Shown: positions 54,811 to 64,000 of the stretch, piece by piece
Position numbering within the stretch: position 1 is the first letter of the stretch
Layout of the letters: each line of letters opens with the position of its first letter
From: Pseudomonas sp. RSB 5.4
GTDB taxonomy: Bacteria > Pseudomonadota > Gammaproteobacteria > Pseudomonadales > Pseudomonadaceae
DNA: 64,000 bases
Reading direction: 5' to 3'
NCBI RefSeq assembly: GCF_037126175.1
Contig: NZ_CP146986.1
Coordinates: forward strand, 2,260,501 to 2,324,500
Notes under the pieces: model-generated
The model's database searches: none
Told to the model about the DNA's origin: nothing
The model's input: only the letters and a program-made list of their open reading frames with translations
Made by a program: the position numbers and the translations under genes

Positions 54811-55923
54811 TCAGTCGTTGATCAGCTTGCCCACCCGAATCGGCTCGCGCCCCGCCACCTTGGCCTGCCAGATCCCCGGCTGGGTGTAACGCCCGCGATC
54901 AATCGCAAACAGCACGCCGCTGGTGCCGGCGCGCACGGTGGTGAGCCGGTCATTCAACGGATCCACCACCTCGAACAGCGCATCGCCCTTCTCGACCCAT
55001 TCCCCGGCATTGCGCAGGAAGCTGACCACGCCATGGTGCGGCGCAAACAGGTATTCGGTGCCTTCGAACGGCATGCCTTCGCAGCATTCGCTCGGTGCCG
55101 CCGGCCATTCGCCGCTGATGAAGCCCTGCTCGGCGAGAAAGCCGAGAATCGCTTCGCAATTGGCCTGGGCCTGATCGACCCGCGTGTCGCCCATGCTGCC
55201 CAGTTCCAGGGTGGTGGCGAGGTTAGCCGGAGGAATCGCCGCGTTCGGGAACGCCCGCGCCAGGCGCAGCCACGGCGACGAGCATGATTCGTCGAACGAA
55301 CTGCCACCGGAGTCTTCACACAACAGCGCAACGCCAGCCTTCAGTCGCGCCGCCAGCGATTGCCAGCGCGGCCAGTGTTGGGGCAGCGCGTAGATGTGAA
55401 TCGCCGCTTCAAAATCGCAATGCAGATCAAGAGTGATGTCGGCGTCGCAGGCATGGCGCAGCAGCAAGCGGTGCAGTGCTTCCAGTTGCGAGGCCGGGGC
55501 TGGCAGCTCATCGAGCACCTGCCCCATGGTCTGGCGGATCAAGGCGATGTTGGCCTCGGCATCGCTGCCCAGTTGCTCGCCGATTCGCGCCGCCACCGGC
55601 GCACTGAGTTCAACAAACGAGCGGTTGAAATTCTTCCCGCTGCCCAGCTCGAAGCGGCCCATGTGGCTGCCCTGCAGGTGCTGGTCGAGGCCGATCGGAT
55701 TGGCCACCGGCACCAGCTCGATCACGCCTTGCAGACGACCCTGCTGTTCCAGCTCGTTGAGGCGTTGTTTGAGTTCCCATGCGGTGCGCATGCCCGGCAG
55801 TTCGTCGGCGTGCAGACTGGCCTGGATGTACACCTTGCGAGTGCCCGCGCCGTAACGGAAGACGCTGAGGGAACGTTCGCTGCCCAAATGGCTCCAGGGC
55901 AGAACATGGTCGATGCGTTGCAT
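54811..55923 (-). CDS. Succinylglutamate desuccinylase / aspartoacylase family protein (AotO-like)
   Basis: A 370-residue zinc hydrolase of the AstE/AspA family. Zinc ligands are H38 and E41 (ASLHADELPG) and H168 (DLHCDFE). A C-terminal beta-rich, biotinyl-like domain includes VVSFLRNAGEWVEKGDALFE. In P. aeruginosa a family member (AotO) is encoded within the arginine/ornithine transport operon; here the adjacent gene is a basic-amino-acid binding protein but the permease and ATPase genes are missing. The substrate is probably an N-acyl amino acid. Confidence 0.85.
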   Translation of the reverse strand: MQRIDHVLPWSHLGSERSLSVFRYGAGTRKVYIQASLHADELPGMRTAWELKQRLNELEQQGRLQGVIELVPVANPIGLDQHLQGSHMGRFELGSGKNFNRSFVELSAPVAARIGEQLGSDAEANIALIRQTMGQVLDELPAPASQLEALHRLLLRHACDADITLDLHCDFEAAIHIYALPQHWPRWQSLAARLKAGVALLCEDSGGSSFDESCSSPWLRLARAFPNAAIPPANLATTLELGSMGDTRVDQAQANCEAILGFLAEQGFISGEWPAAPSECCEGMPFEGTEYLFAPHHGVVSFLRNAGEWVEKGDALFEVVDPLNDRLTTVRAGTSGVLFAIDRGRYTQPGIWQAKVAGREPIRVGKLIND

Positions 55924-55958
55924 GGGTAACTCCTGAAAATTGAATCGGCGAAAATCCC

Positions 55959-56051
55959 CTGTGGGAGCGGGCTTGCCCGCGAAGGCGGTGTATCAATCAA
56001 TGATTATGTTGAATGTTATACCGCCTTCGCGAGCAAGCCCGCTCCCACAGG
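55959..56051. repeat. REP pair (family A)
   Basis: Inverted GTGGGAGCGGGCTTGCCCGC copies between the hydrolase and the binding-protein gene, just past the latter's terminator. Confidence 0.9.
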
Positions 56052-56077
56052 GGGTCTTTGTCTTCAGGGAAAGAGCA

Positions 56078-56117
56078 CAAAAAAAGTGGCCACCGCATTC
56101 ACGGGGCCACTTTTTTC
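56078..56117 (-). terminator. Terminator of the amino-acid binding protein gene
   Basis: AGTGGCC and GGCCACT pair around a 13-base loop, with seven T on the minus strand and six on the plus strand. It separates this gene from the aspartoacylase-like gene. Confidence 0.88.
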
Positions 56118-56126
56118 TACAGCGTA

Positions 56127-56906
56127 TTAATGACCGTACACATCAAAGTCGAAGTACTTGTCCTGGACTTTCTTGTACTCACCATTGGCGCGGATTTCGG
56201 TGATGGCCTTGTTGAATTTCTCGGCCAGTTCGGTATCGCCCTTGCGTACGGCAATCCCGGCACCGCCGCCGAAGTACTTGGCGTCTTCGTAGGTCGGGCC
56301 GACGAATTCGAAGCCTTTACCGGCGTCGGTCTTCAGGAAACCGTCGCTGAGGTTGACCGAGTCCGCCAGCATCGCGTCGAGACGGCCGGATTTCATGTCC
56401 AGGTTGGCTTCCTGTTGCGAGCCATAGCGCACCACTTCAAACCCGGCTTCCTTGGCCATGTCGGTGGCATAGCGGTCGTGGGTACTGGCGCGCAGCACGC
56501 CGACTTTCTTACCCTTGAGCTCGGTCAGCGGGTCTTTGACACCGGAGCCTTCCTTCATCACGAAGCGCGCCGGGGTGTGGTAGTACTTGATGGTGAAATC
56601 GACGTTTTTCTTGCGGTCGTCAGTGATGGTCATCGAGGACAGGATCGCGTCGATCTTCTTCACTTTGAGTGCCGGGATCAGGCCATCGAACTCCTGCTCG
56701 ACCCACACGCATTTGACGTCCATCTGTTTGCACAGGGCATCGCCGATATCGACGTCGAACCCGGTGAGTTTGCCATCAGCGGTTTTCATCGAGAATGGCG
56801 GGTAAGCGGCTTCGATCCCCAGACGAATCGGTTTGGCGTCTTCGGCCACAGCGGTCAGGGACAACATCGACAGTGCCAGGGCACCGAACATCACTAGCTT
56901 TTTCAT
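56127..56906 (-). CDS. Basic amino-acid ABC transporter periplasmic binding protein (ArgT/HisJ/AotJ type)
   Basis: A 259-residue solute-binding protein. The signal peptide is about 1-22 ([20 protein letters not shown]). The mature N-terminus [32 protein letters not shown] and [20 protein letters not shown] are typical of the lysine/arginine/ornithine group. The likely ligand is arginine or ornithine. No permease or ATPase genes follow; a strong terminator ends the transcript, so it may share membrane components encoded elsewhere. Confidence 0.9.
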
Positions 56907-60429: not shown

Positions 60430-60484
60430 CCGTTAAAAATTCACTAGACATGTAACCTGAGTTACATAAATACTGTTTTAACGG
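60430..60484. promoter_or_regulatory. Nested inverted repeats upstream of the RpiR operon
   Basis: An outer pair CCGTTAAAA (60430-60438) and TTTTAACGG (60476-60484) encloses a perfect inner palindrome ATGTAAC-CTGA-GTTACAT (60450-60467). The two centres are within 1.5 bases. It ends 46 bases before the RpiR gene ATG, a good position for an operator of that regulator. Function inferred from symmetry and position. Confidence 0.6.
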
Positions 60485-60530
60485 ATTATGAAACGAATTC
60501 AACACCCCCCTTCATCCAGCAGGAGCCCGG

Positions 60531-61385
60531 ATGCCCCCTCTCAGAGACTTGATCACCGATCCCGGCCTGGAGCTGACGCCGTCTGAGCGCAAAGTGATTC
60601 GCGCCCTGCTCGACCAGTATCCACGCAACGGCCTGGGTCCGATGGCGCGTCTGGCCGAGCACGCCGGCGTCAGCGATCCGACCATCGTGCGGCTGGTGAA
60701 GAAGCTCGGATTCGGCGGTTACGCCGAGTTTCAGGACGCCCTGCTCAGCGACATGGATCACCGTCTGCGTTCGCCGCGCACCCTCTTGCAGCCGCGTTCG
60801 CACCTGAACAAGGACGATGCCTGGGGCCATTATCTGGCCGACAGCCAGCGTCTGCTGGTGGAAACCCAAGCCCTGACGCAACCCGAAGACGTGCGCATTC
60901 TGCTCGACTGGCTGCTCGACACCCGGCACCAGATCTACTGCTTCGGCGGGCGCTTCAGCAGCCTGATGGCCAACTATCTGCTCAACCACTTGCGGCTGCT
61001 TCGGCCCGGCTGTTTTGCCCTGGAAGACAACGCACAACTGCCCGACCGCCTGTTCGATCTGCAACGCCAGGACGTGGTGCTGCTGTTTGATTACCGGCGC
61101 TATCAGTCCCAGGCCCTGCGGGTGGCCTCGGCGGCGAAGAACAACAACGCGCGGGTGGTGCTGTTCACCGACATCTATGCCTCGCCGCTGCGTGAACTGG
61201 CTGACCTGATCATCAGCGCCCCGGTGGAATCGGCCTCACCGTTCGACACCATGGTGCCGGCGCTGGCCCAGGTCGAGGCGCTGATTGCCTGCCTGACCCT
61301 GCGCACCCCCGATCTGGCCGATCGCCTGGAAGGCATCGACGCCCTGCGCAACGACTTCAACACCCACCTGCTGGAGGATAAATAA
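60531..61385 (+). CDS. MurR/RpiR-family transcriptional regulator
   Basis: A 284-residue regulator. The N-terminal HTH_6 domain includes LTPSERKVIRALLDQYPRNG and MARLAEHAGVSDPTIVRLVK. The C-terminal SIS domain (about 125-265) contains QIYCFGGRFSSLMANYLLNH and VVLLFDYRRYQSQALRVASA. RpiR proteins usually sense phosphosugars, but here the gene leads an operon for amide/glutamyl metabolism: three more genes follow within 3 bases or overlapping. It is the likely autoregulator acting at the palindrome upstream. Confidence 0.92.
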   Translation: MPPLRDLITDPGLELTPSERKVIRALLDQYPRNGLGPMARLAEHAGVSDPTIVRLVKKLGFGGYAEFQDALLSDMDHRLRSPRTLLQPRSHLNKDDAWGHYLADSQRLLVETQALTQPEDVRILLDWLLDTRHQIYCFGGRFSSLMANYLLNHLRLLRPGCFALEDNAQLPDRLFDLQRQDVVLLFDYRRYQSQALRVASAAKNNNARVVLFTDIYASPLRELADLIISAPVESASPFDTMVPALAQVEALIACLTLRTPDLADRLEGIDALRNDFNTHLLEDK

Positions 61386-61387
61386 GG

Positions 61388-62032
61388 ATGTTCAGCCTTC
61401 CCCACCGCTCGCCGCGGGACTTGCCGTTTATCACCAACCACACCGCGTTGTTGCTGGTGGACATGCAGCGTGCCTGGCTCGAACCGCAGTACGACCCGCA
61501 CCTGAACGGCCCGGAAGCCGAATATTTCCTGACCCGCGCGCACATGCAGGTGGTGCCCAACCAGCGCCGGCTGCTCAGCGCCTTTCGCGAAGCGCGGCAG
61601 AACGTGCTGCACACGATTATCGAGAGCCTGACCGCCGACGGTCGCGACCGCTCGCTGGATCACAAGCTGTCAGACATGCACCTGCCCAAGGGCAGCACCC
61701 AGGCGCGGATCATCGACGACCTGACGCCAGTGGAAAACGAGATCGTGTTGCCGAAAACCTCCTCCGGGGTGTTCAACTCGACCAACATCGATTACGTCCT
61801 GCGCAACCTCGAAACCCGCCACCTGATCATCGCCGGCATCGTCACTGACCAGTGCGTCGACATGGCCGTGCGCGATGCCGCCGACCGTGGCTATCTGGTG
61901 ACGCTGGTCGAAGACGCCTGCGCCACCTACACCCCGGCGCGACATGACGCCTGCCTCAACGCGATCAAGGGTTACTGCTGGATCACCGACACACAAACCG
62001 TGCTCGGCCGCTTGCAGGAGATGCAGCCATGA
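61388..62032 (+). CDS. Isochorismatase-like cysteine hydrolase
   Basis: A 214-residue hydrolase of the isochorismatase/nicotinamidase superfamily. The catalytic triad is D25 (LLLVDMQRAW), K123 (VLPKTSSGVF) and C156 (GIVTDQCVDMA, including the cis-peptide region). Such enzymes cleave amides such as N-carbamoyl or ureido compounds. It starts 2 bases after the RpiR stop and overlaps the GS-like gene by four bases, so it is part of a coupled operon. The substrate is unknown. Confidence 0.9.
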   Translation: MFSLPHRSPRDLPFITNHTALLLVDMQRAWLEPQYDPHLNGPEAEYFLTRAHMQVVPNQRRLLSAFREARQNVLHTIIESLTADGRDRSLDHKLSDMHLPKGSTQARIIDDLTPVENEIVLPKTSSGVFNSTNIDYVLRNLETRHLIIAGIVTDQCVDMAVRDAADRGYLVTLVEDACATYTPARHDACLNAIKGYCWITDTQTVLGRLQEMQP

Positions 62033-63360
62033 GCGAGCGCCTGACACCGTTGCCGATGACCACCATCGTCACCACCGACCTGATCGGCATCACCCGTGGC
62101 CGCTCGTTTCCCACCGATCAACTGGAGCATTATCACGCCGCCGGTTGCGGCTGGGTGCCGGCCAACAGTGCACTGACGCCCCAGGACATCATCGCCTCGA
62201 CCAACCCATGGGGCGCCTATGGTGATTTGCGGTTGATCCCGGATCTGAACAGCCGCGTCACCGTCGGCAACGGCCCGGACGCCGCGGCACCAGCGCTGGA
62301 CTTCATCCACGGCGACATTCGCGAGACTGATGGTCGCCCGTGGAGCGCCTGTCCGCGCACGTTGTTGCGCGATGAAATCGAGCGCTATCGCGACAACCTC
62401 GGCTTGCAGGTCAACGCCGCGTTCGAACACGAATTCAACCTGCATGCCGGTTTTGCCGAGCATCTGGCGTTTTCCCTTGAAGCCCAGCGTCAGGGCGCCG
62501 AATTCGGCGGCTGGCTGCTCAGCGCCCTGCGCGCCGGCGGTGTCGAGCCAGAGATGTTCCTGCCCGAATACGGCAAGCACCAATACGAAATCACCTGCCG
62601 GCCGACGCTCGGTGTGGCGGCGGCGGATCGTGCGGTCAACGTGCGCGAGATCACTCGCGAAATCGCCCGGCAAATGGGCGTCGACGTCAGTTTCGCGCCG
62701 AAAACCAAGGCCGATGCGGTGTGCAACGGTGTGCACCTGCACGTCAGCCTGCTCGACCTGCAAGGTCTGCCGCTGCTTTACGACGCCGGCACCAGCAACG
62801 GTCTGTCGACCCTCGGCCAGCATTGGGCCGCGGGGATCCTGCATTACCTGCCAGCGCTGTGTGCGTTCACCGCGCCGACGCCGGTTTCGTATGAGCGCCT
62901 GCAGCCGCATCACTGGAGCGCGTCCTATGCGTGTCTGGGGCAGCAGAACCGTGAAGCGGCGTTGCGCATTTGTCCGACCGTGAGCCTGGGCTGCAAATCC
63001 GTGGCGGCGCAGTACAACCTGGAATTCCGCGCCATGGACGCTACCGCCTCGCCGCATCTGGCGATGGCCGCGCTGCTGATTGCCGGACGCCTGGGCATCG
63101 AACAGCGCCTGGCGCTGAACGCGATCACCGACGACATTCCCGATTCACTCAACGACGAGCAACGCAAGGCCCGGGGCATCGTTGCCCTGCCCGCCTCGCT
63201 GGCGCAGGCGCTGGATTGCCTGCGTGACAGTGCCGCCTTCAATCAATGGCTGCCCAAGCCGTTGCTCGACACTTACCACGCCCTTAAAACCGAGGAACTG
63301 GCGCTGACGGAACAGCTCTCGCCCGCTGACCTGTGTGAGCACTATGCACGCCTGTACTGA
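62029..63360 (+). CDS. Glutamine-synthetase-like gamma-glutamyl ligase
   Basis: A 443-residue GS-fold ligase, about the length of PuuA-type ligases. Metal and nucleotide residues are kept: E133 and E135 (AFEHEFNLH), E187 in KHQYEIT, H236/H238 in NGVHLHVSLLD, and the C-terminal YNLEFRAMDATASPHLAMAA. The family adenylates or phosphorylates glutamate and ligates it to an amine. It is neither GlnA nor the ligase at the left edge. The start overlaps the preceding hydrolase stop; the amidohydrolase start lies 17 bases inside its end. Substrate amine unknown. Confidence 0.88.
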   Translation: MSERLTPLPMTTIVTTDLIGITRGRSFPTDQLEHYHAAGCGWVPANSALTPQDIIASTNPWGAYGDLRLIPDLNSRVTVGNGPDAAAPALDFIHGDIRETDGRPWSACPRTLLRDEIERYRDNLGLQVNAAFEHEFNLHAGFAEHLAFSLEAQRQGAEFGGWLLSALRAGGVEPEMFLPEYGKHQYEITCRPTLGVAAADRAVNVREITREIARQMGVDVSFAPKTKADAVCNGVHLHVSLLDLQGLPLLYDAGTSNGLSTLGQHWAAGILHYLPALCAFTAPTPVSYERLQPHHWSASYACLGQQNREAALRICPTVSLGCKSVAAQYNLEFRAMDATASPHLAMAALLIAGRLGIEQRLALNAITDDIPDSLNDEQRKARGIVALPASLAQALDCLRDSAAFNQWLPKPLLDTYHALKTEELALTEQLSPADLCEHYARLY

Positions 63361-64000
63361 ATCCGCCGAGCAGGGGTTGTACACCCGCCCGGTCTACAAC
63401 CTGAGCCGCGAAGATTCATCGTATCCGTTGATCCTGGTGTGTGAGCACGCCAGCCGCTACATCCCCGAGGCCCTGAGCAATCTGGGCCTGGACGATGCAG
63501 CCGCGCGCGAGCACATCGCCTGGGACATCGGCGCACTGCAACTGGCTGAAAAGCTCTCGGAGAGACTCGGCGCGACGCTGTTGAGCGCCAACTATTCACG
63601 GCTGCTGATCGACCTCAATCGGCCCCGGCATGCCCCCGACAGCATTCCGGCGCAGAGCGAGATTTATCAGGTGCCCGGCAACCGCGACCTGGACGAAGCC
63701 ACTCGCGAGTACCGGCGCCAGAGCTTGTTCAAACCGTTTCACGCCCGGCTGCAGACCCTGATCGACCAACGCGTCGCACAAGGCCAAGCGGTACGGGTGG
63801 TAGGGATTCACAGTTTTACCCCGGTGTATTACGGCCAGCCGCGGCCGCTGGAAGTCGGCGTGCTGTTCGGTCAGGCCAAAACGTACGCCCAGCGGGTGAT
63901 CGATGGCCTCGGCCAGCACCCGCTGAAAGTCGCGGGCAACCAGCCGTACCGGATTGATCCGCTGGGTGACATGACCGTGCCGGTGCATGGCGATGCCCGA
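63344..64000 (+). CDS. N-formylglutamate amidohydrolase (partial, 3' end outside window)
   Basis: From an ATG at 63344 the frame runs 219 codons to the window edge. The family is FGase (HutG-like): LILVCEHASRYIPEALSNLG, then AWDIGALQLAEKLSERL, SRLLIDLNRPRHAPDSI and VVGIHSFTPVYYG. The canonical enzyme splits N-formylglutamate into glutamate and formate. It overlaps the GS-like gene by 17 bases, so expression is coupled. No hut genes are nearby, which argues for a substrate other than histidine-derived formylglutamate. Confidence 0.88.
   Translation, partial: MHACTESAEQGLYTRPVYNLSREDSSYPLILVCEHASRYIPEALSNLGLDDAAAREHIAWDIGALQLAEKLSERLGATLLSANYSRLLIDLNRPRHAPDSIPAQSEIYQVPGNRDLDEATREYRRQSLFKPFHARLQTLIDQRVAQGQAVRVVGIHSFTPVYYGQPRPLEVGVLFGQAKTYAQRVIDGLGQHPLKVAGNQPYRIDPLGDMTVPVHGDAR

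Follow-up and report, generated by a model that had tools for sequence, protein, structure and literature searches.

The qapR operon and its orthologue in Pseudomonas sp. RSB 5.4

The closest described relative of the gene group studied here is the qapR operon of Pseudomonas aeruginosa (PA5506-PA5510, PA5506 being QapR). This operon is known mainly through the Pseudomonas quinolone signal. The title of the qapR paper names repression of the operon by QapR and a lower level of the signal, and the title of Tipton 2015, as cited in PMC6321483, gives post-transcriptional regulation of PA5507 as controlling the concentration of the signal. According to PMC13101494, PA5506 is an RpiR-type protein, PMC2542419 describes PA5510 as an APC transporter, and the structure 4HPP is that of PA5508 (PMC6478659). 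We analyzed a stretch of 64,000 nucleotides from the soil bacterium Pseudomonas sp. RSB 5.4 (the window; bases 2260501-2324500 of a complete genome of 6.24 Mb) which carries four such genes at its right end. They encode a regulator of the RpiR family, an isochorismatase-fold cysteine hydrolase (ISO), a glutamine-synthetase-like ligase (GS) and a protein of the N-formylglutamate amidohydrolase family (FG). The locus is the orthologue of the qapR operon and comprises the following features.

60450..60467, no strand: operator-like palindrome ATGTAACCTGAGTTACAT (TGTAACCTGAGTTACA), 81 to 64 nt upstream of the start of qapR
60531..61385, + strand: QapR orthologue, RpiR-family regulator of 284 amino acids (Pfam HTH_6 and SIS)
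61388..62032, + strand: PA5507 orthologue, ISO with the triad D25-K123-C156 and the signature SLTxDGRDRSLDxK (Pfam Isochorismatase)
62029..63360, + strand: PA5508/PauA7 orthologue, probable glutamate-amine ligase of GS fold (Pfam Gln-synt_N_2 and Gln-synt_C)
63335..64000, + strand: PA5509 orthologue, FG (PF05013), running past the window end (Pfam FGase)

The ligase shares 293 of 440 aligned residues (67%) with PDB entry 4hpp. Another genome, with a GS 96% identical to this entry, carries RpiR, ISO, GS, FG and an APC-family permease in the same order, and its proteins are 64-75% identical to those of the window. The arrangement RpiR-ISO-GS-FG-APC on one strand, as in locus L235, was found at the window locus, where the regulator is 64% identical to the one beside the PA5508-like GS of L235. 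Thus, the locus resembles the operon of P. aeruginosa in its regulator, hydrolase, ligase, FGase-family protein and permease and in their order. It differs in the degree of protein identity given above and in its position between cobC and an aruF/aruG-like gene pair.

The initial annotation of this DNA had described four packed genes for an RpiR regulator, an isochorismatase-like hydrolase, a GS-like ligase and an N-formylglutamate amidohydrolase, and coordinates, Pfam and genome agree with this description. All four genes lie on the + strand with gaps of 2, -4 and -26 nt, the Pfam matches of all four products exceed their cut-offs, and the regulator combines HTH_6 with a SIS domain as expected for the RpiR/MurR family. 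The SIS-domain sensor had also been called unusual for such a pathway. The combination is not an undescribed one, as this is the qapR operon, for which an RpiR/SIS regulator was already known. New here are the occurrence of a GS-ISO-FG core in other genera, an ISO signature centred on LTxDGRD, an operator-like palindrome, and an oxidase or aminotransferase in some distant versions. Within the open-licence literature we found no paper in which RpiR, isochorismatase, N-formylglutamate and glutamine synthetase appear together, and no account of the trio outside P. aeruginosa.

Further published observations concern the P. aeruginosa genes. An anaerobic nrdR mutant is listed with log2 changes of 3.21 for PA5507 and 2.99 for PA5509 (PMC4409342), a Crc study tabulates PA5508 and PA5510 among post-transcriptional changes (PMC6235884), and a pyocyanin screen yielded an insertion in PA5506 (PMC13101494).

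In order to compare gene order within the genus, as the initial annotation had proposed, we used the best 80 of 101 loci found by GS similarity, all from Pseudomonas and referred to here as named loci. The closest of their ligases, from Pseudomonas parakoreensis, P. koreensis and two further species, are 98% identical to that of the window. RpiR-ISO-GS-FG was present in the same order in 80/80 named loci. Consequently, the operon is not a chance arrangement, and the reading of the four genes as one RpiR-headed unit is borne out. Median dN/dS values against the window ranged from 0.04 to 0.13 across the seven genes from the regulator to the aruG-like gene (each gene compared in 58 to 80 usable loci). 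The distance from the qapR stop codon to the ISO start is 2 nt in 79 of the 80 loci, and a putative ribosome-binding stretch of ISO falls within the final codons of qapR. Such a placement would suit the reported coupling of QapR and PA5507 translation. With the start used for the window, FG begins 26 nt inside GS in all 80 loci; 77 of them have the codon GTG at this place and 3 have GCG, so that an ATG at 63344 may be the true start. FG ends 96 bases beyond the window, at L003:4096 of the genome.

Downstream of FG follow an APC-family permease, an AruF-like protein (420.9 bits, cut-off for the alpha subunit 458.8), an AruG-like protein (440.2 bits, cut-off for AstA 391) and an ICL/PEP-mutase-like protein. 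It had been suggested that a transporter or an oxidase be sought to the right; the transporter is indeed the next gene, while no oxidase follows FG in the genome continuation beyond 64000. The permease is absent from one named locus (L074). The aruF-like gene stands behind the cassette in 80/80 and the aruG-like gene in 79/80 named loci, the exception being L082, which ends at a contig end.

In a sample of the genus, a GS at E ≤ 1e-100 was found in 47 of 199 genomes, and in 43 of these 47 an aruF-like gene lies within 5 kb of the cassette (coordinates read by eye). An AruF-like protein of at least 70% identity occurs in 14 genomes of the sample that have no such GS, and 13 of these 14 loci were retrieved. 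Eleven of the 13 are devoid of any cassette gene at the site; of the other two, the stretch of L152 starts immediately ahead of the pair, and L157 keeps FG alone. Conversely, the cassette occurs without an adjoining pair in G332, G321, G346 and the 4hpp-like G1214, and in G445 the two are on different contigs. Since cassette and aruF/aruG-like pair occur apart, the unit is the five-gene cassette RpiR-ISO-GS-FG-APC. The ICL/PEP-mutase-like gene was rejected as a member. In some loci two unrelated genes intervene, in the stretches of others it was not found, and it also trails the aruFG-like pair where the cassette is absent.

The ligase and the two amide hydrolases

Glutamyl-organic-amine synthetases such as PA5508/PauA7, NpaA1, AtdA1, GlnA3 and GlnA4 share the GS fold, have kept the residues for metal, glutamate and ATP, and have lost those of the ammonium site. 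The window GS shows the same pattern. It retains E133, E135, E180, E187, N233, G234, H236, H238, R290, R313, E332 and R334, all of which PMC6529630 lists as metal, glutamate or nucleotide residues of PauA7; where this list prints E322, our alignment has E332. The six metal residues E133, E135, E180, E187, H236 and E332, noted as intact in the initial annotation, are invariant in 38/38 aligned proteins (window included in this and the following counts of aligned proteins). At the ammonium site W296, A147 and G41 replace E327, Y179 and D50 of true glutamine synthetase, and the same three pocket residues are present in PauA7. W296 is invariant in 38/38, whereas position 147 varies (17 A, 11 S, 6 P, 4 other residues).

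Judged by these residues, the enzyme probably attaches glutamate to amines, in agreement with the earlier proposal of a GS-like amine ligase. ATP-dependent gamma-glutamylation of organic amines has been reported for PA5508 (PMC6478659, PMC11335346), with a preference in vitro for bulky amines (catecholamines) over linear polyamines (PMC6478659). A study of plasmid cost found PA5506-PA5509 elevated in PAO1 with every plasmid except pAMBL1 and interpreted them as glutamine-synthesis genes (PMC6246594). We do not favour this interpretation because the ligase is without the ammonium-site residues. The top NCBIfam match of GS is gamma-glutamylputrescine synthetase (NF045547), at 255 bits far below the cut-off of 650 bits, and the host genome has 8 other GS-fold places. 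The window GS differs from the synthetases named above in being paired with ISO and FG, and neither a ring dioxygenase nor a class-I amidotransferase could be recognised next to it.

ISO matches PF00857 and carries the D-K-C triad of isochorismatase-fold cysteine hydrolases. The triad D25/K123/C156, which had been assigned correctly before, is invariant in 32/32 aligned proteins. A D-K-C cysteine triad is typical of amidases. Isochorismatase as the activity of ISO was therefore rejected. R86 is likewise found in 32/32, K93 in 31/32 and R88 in 29/32 proteins. The motif LTxDGRD occurs in 31/32 and the full signature SLTxDGRDRSLD(H/Y)K in 25/32 (manual count), and none of the 8 further isochorismatase-fold proteins in the host genome carries the motif. 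Among solved chains, ISO comes closest to the cysteine hydrolases 6xix (79.8 bits) and 6xj4 (75.2 bits), which we take to be triuret hydrolase, and then to RutB. ISO shares the triad with biuret-type hydrolases and RutB. However, its scores are below the cut-off for both BiuH (85 bits versus 370) and RutB (77.5 versus 378), and it has its own signature.

FG belongs to the FGase family PF05013 (147.9 bits, gathering score 28.9). Its assignment as N-formylglutamate amidohydrolase stands at the level of this family and not beyond. Against the N-formylglutamate deformylase HutG (TIGR02017) it reached 40.7 bits, with a cut-off of 278.75, and the genuine hutG of the host (400.9 bits) lies elsewhere in the genome. 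FG is a distant member of the FGase family and not HutG. By sequence its nearest relative is 2odf (Atu2144). A structure predicted for the FG of locus L013 (mean pLDDT 74.9) gave Foldseek E-values of 3e-25 to 2odf and 3.2e-9 to 2q7s, an N-formylglutamate amidohydrolase; this result mainly repeats the relationship to 2odf. FG and the host HutG have H38, S88-R89, D93, N95-R96, H159 and E230 in common. FG has W-D in place of the W-H of HutG and the additional arginines R127, R170 and R232. R89, R96, R127, R170 and R232 are present in 28/28 aligned proteins. The two hydrolases are unrelated to each other, so that the two different amidases postulated earlier are indeed two. From their conserved arginines and lysines we infer that both ISO and FG bind acidic, glutamate-bearing amides.

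The gene trio in other genera and the proposed route

Outside the genus of the window, 37 regions from 33 genomes were collected. Two of 21 matches (own genus) and 6 of 24 (already in the set) were left out of the distant sets, and the 37 regions are not independent events, since some are closely related. Genes were counted by tblastn because our own codon-score gene caller missed some, for example GS in L198 and L199; 7 of the 37 regions (4 in the case of RpiR, ISO and FG) contributed to the query panel, so that matches there are partly given by construction. ISO was found in 31, FG in 27, RpiR in 19 and the Liv-type transporter LivMG in 19 of the 37 regions. A class-III aminotransferase was present in 10 regions, a flavin adenine dinucleotide (FAD) oxidase in 6 and an amidohydrolase of the FluG type in 5; 3 regions had an APC permease. 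In the 7 regions around the other GS genes of the host, tblastn detected neither ISO nor FG nor RpiR (0/7). Several distant regions (L224, L230 and L214) hold little more of the panel than GS, FG and ISO. This trio is therefore taken as the core in other genera. Among neighbour families beyond the panel, none is common to more than 3 of the 37 regions. The GS of L190 has its nearest named relatives in Mesorhizobium, Rhizobium and Phyllobacterium, and on this basis many of the distant genomes are taken to be alphaproteobacterial. With the qapR operon tied to this wider trio, the natural substrate can be sought in soil Pseudomonas and in rhizobia-like relatives.

In L192, L202, L215, L218 and L220 an amidohydrolase stands directly beside the PA5508-type ligase, so that the two halves of FluG appear as separate neighbours. 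FluG is a fungal fusion of GS with a metal-dependent hydrolase. PA5508 can stand in for its GS half, and LSEI_0440, which is 2QPX, for the other half (PMC6478659). The only PDB match of the L192 amidohydrolase is 2qpx. The bacterial genes differ from FluG in being separate, and FG and ISO are the more usual partners of GS. Replacement of FG by this amidohydrolase was considered and dropped, as FG is also found in 3 of the 5 regions and an FG-like frame of 114 amino acids in L220. In L193 and L213 the run of genes with GS includes a fusion of kinase, M23 and class-III aminotransferase (1014 amino acids, PRK06148 type); matches to this fusion occur in 6 of the 37 regions in all.

The best explanation of the whole, to which we give a probability of roughly 0.6, is that the locus is a qapR orthologue serving amine uptake, gamma-glutamylation and subsequent hydrolysis of glutamyl or acyl amides. 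QapR would repress its own operon from the palindrome before qapR, the repression being named in the title of the qapR paper. On derepression the APC permease would import an amine, amino-acid-like or aromatic, which the ligase would join to the gamma-carboxyl group of glutamate with ATP, as its conserved residues and the in vitro work of others on PA5508 suggest. ISO, as a D-K-C cysteine amidase, and FG, as a hydrolase of carboxypeptidase fold, would then hydrolyse the glutamylated or N-acylated intermediate at its amide bonds and return glutamate together with an acid or ammonia. This order of steps, activation followed by dismantling to glutamate plus a small acid, is that of the initial annotation, and here too it is put forward as an inference. 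In some distant relatives a route of activation, oxidation and release would be completed by an FAD amine oxidase, a class-III aminotransferase or both. Pseudomonas would either lack the oxidation step or draw on enzymes encoded elsewhere.

Several findings weigh against this explanation. ISO is absent from 6 and FG from 10 of the 37 distant regions, and the ISO of L219 is without the signature. An oxidase of at least 53% identity was found in only 5 of the 37, the sixth match being at 30%; with so few regions, oxidation is not part of the core. Among 24 other FG-family matches (36-47% identity, 23 genomes), GS was seen in 1, RpiR in 3 and ISO in 0, with stretches that span only about 1.5 kb on each side and sample the class of the window. 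The FG family is thus not confined to the trio. From the PA5510 mutant, which appears in PMC2542419 only in a Biolog strain table, that source gives no transporter phenotype. Finally, spermidine and putrescine are named as example substrates of PA5508 in PMC11335346, in conflict with the account of bulky amines.

This last statement also speaks for a polyamine-degradation variant in which the ligase is just another PauA/SpuI/PuuA enzyme acting on putrescine-type polyamines. The top NCBIfam match points the same way, as do the name PauA7 and the grouping of PA5508 with polyamine genes in a review. The score of this match is far below its cut-off, however, and the host has the other GS-fold places already mentioned. 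No oxidase, aldehyde dehydrogenase or PuuD-type amidotransferase of a Puu/Pau pathway was recognised among the operon proteins, and PA5508 is described as the one paralogue that is not induced by polyamines (PMC6478659). We regard this variant as very improbable. The initial annotation had stated that an ordinary polyamine ligase with a described operon would speak against its proposal; the operon has indeed been described, but not for an ordinary polyamine pathway. Scarcely less improbable is a single pathway of seven genes, reaching through the aruG-like gene, in which a diamino acid is both N-succinylated and glutamylated, a route of citrulline or arginine type. The regular position of the aruFG-like genes behind the cassette is in its favour, together with the resemblance of ISO to ureido and biuret hydrolases. 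The pair-only genomes and the solitary cassettes in G332, G321, G346 and G1214 nevertheless show the two to be separable, and CtlX, the putative citrullinase published for relatives, belongs to another family. For the same two reasons the candidate role of ISO as a citrullinase feeding the aruFG-like pair was dropped.

An operon dedicated to inactivation of the quinolone signal, which would consume the alkylquinolone itself or aromatic-amine precursors, for example of the anthranilate type, seems unlikely to us, if not to the same degree. The two paper titles on QapR and PA5507 argue for it, as does the report that PA5508 prefers amines that are bulky or aromatic (PMC6478659, PMC6529630). Against it stand the Liv-type amino-acid importers found with the GS-ISO-FG core in other genera, the APC permease joined to the Pseudomonas version, and the similarity of one distant GS to those of Mesorhizobium and Rhizobium. 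We know of no alkylquinolone signalling in these two genera. Under the preferred explanation of amine uptake, glutamylation and amide hydrolysis, the pathway probably lowers the signal of P. aeruginosa incidentally, by acting on an aromatic precursor or on the signal itself, and this is probably not its ancestral purpose. More tentatively, and at somewhat less than even odds, GS-ISO-FG may constitute an undescribed, widespread proteobacterial module for amine processing. It would consist of the ligase and two hydrolases for glutamyl or acyl amides that act on a common acidic intermediate, with importers of the APC or amino-acid ABC type. The quinolone-linked qapR operon would then be one local use, and the ligase (in 5/37 regions plus the FluG-type hydrolase) would be common to FluG modules.

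Operator-like palindrome and neighbouring genes

The palindrome listed above sits in the gap between the divergent genes cobC and qapR, and it is the putative operator of QapR, which would serve autorepression. A pattern of the type TGTAR...YTACA, composed after inspection of the sequences and applied to interrelated loci, was found within 160 nt before the regulator in 74/80 named loci versus 29/16000 single-base shuffles. The first match lies at -74 to -79 in 53 loci and at -148 to -151 in 21, some of which show both sites (e.g. L017 and L060). The pattern matches once in the window. More distant cassettes have variants of it (L186) or split half sites (L235 and L236).

The AruF/AruG-type pair just past the window (L003:5642-7754, or 65642-67754 in window numbering) is a second such pair in this genome; its AruF-like protein is 59% identical to another one encoded elsewhere. 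This pair is kept at the cob locus with or without the qapR cassette. At L157, FG is the sole cassette gene left between cobC and the pair, the others being gone. Two tandem genes at L003:9358-10808 (257 and 226 amino acids) gave no Pfam or NCBIfam match. Both occur in 15/80 named loci, before or after the ICL-like gene, as if mobile. Finally, the region 54811-56906 encodes a protein of 370 amino acids which weakly matches the N-acetyl-diaminobutanoate deacetylase DoeB. It sits behind a binding protein of the lysine/arginine/ornithine type (259 amino acids), and the two are found together in 12/20 loci of relatives.

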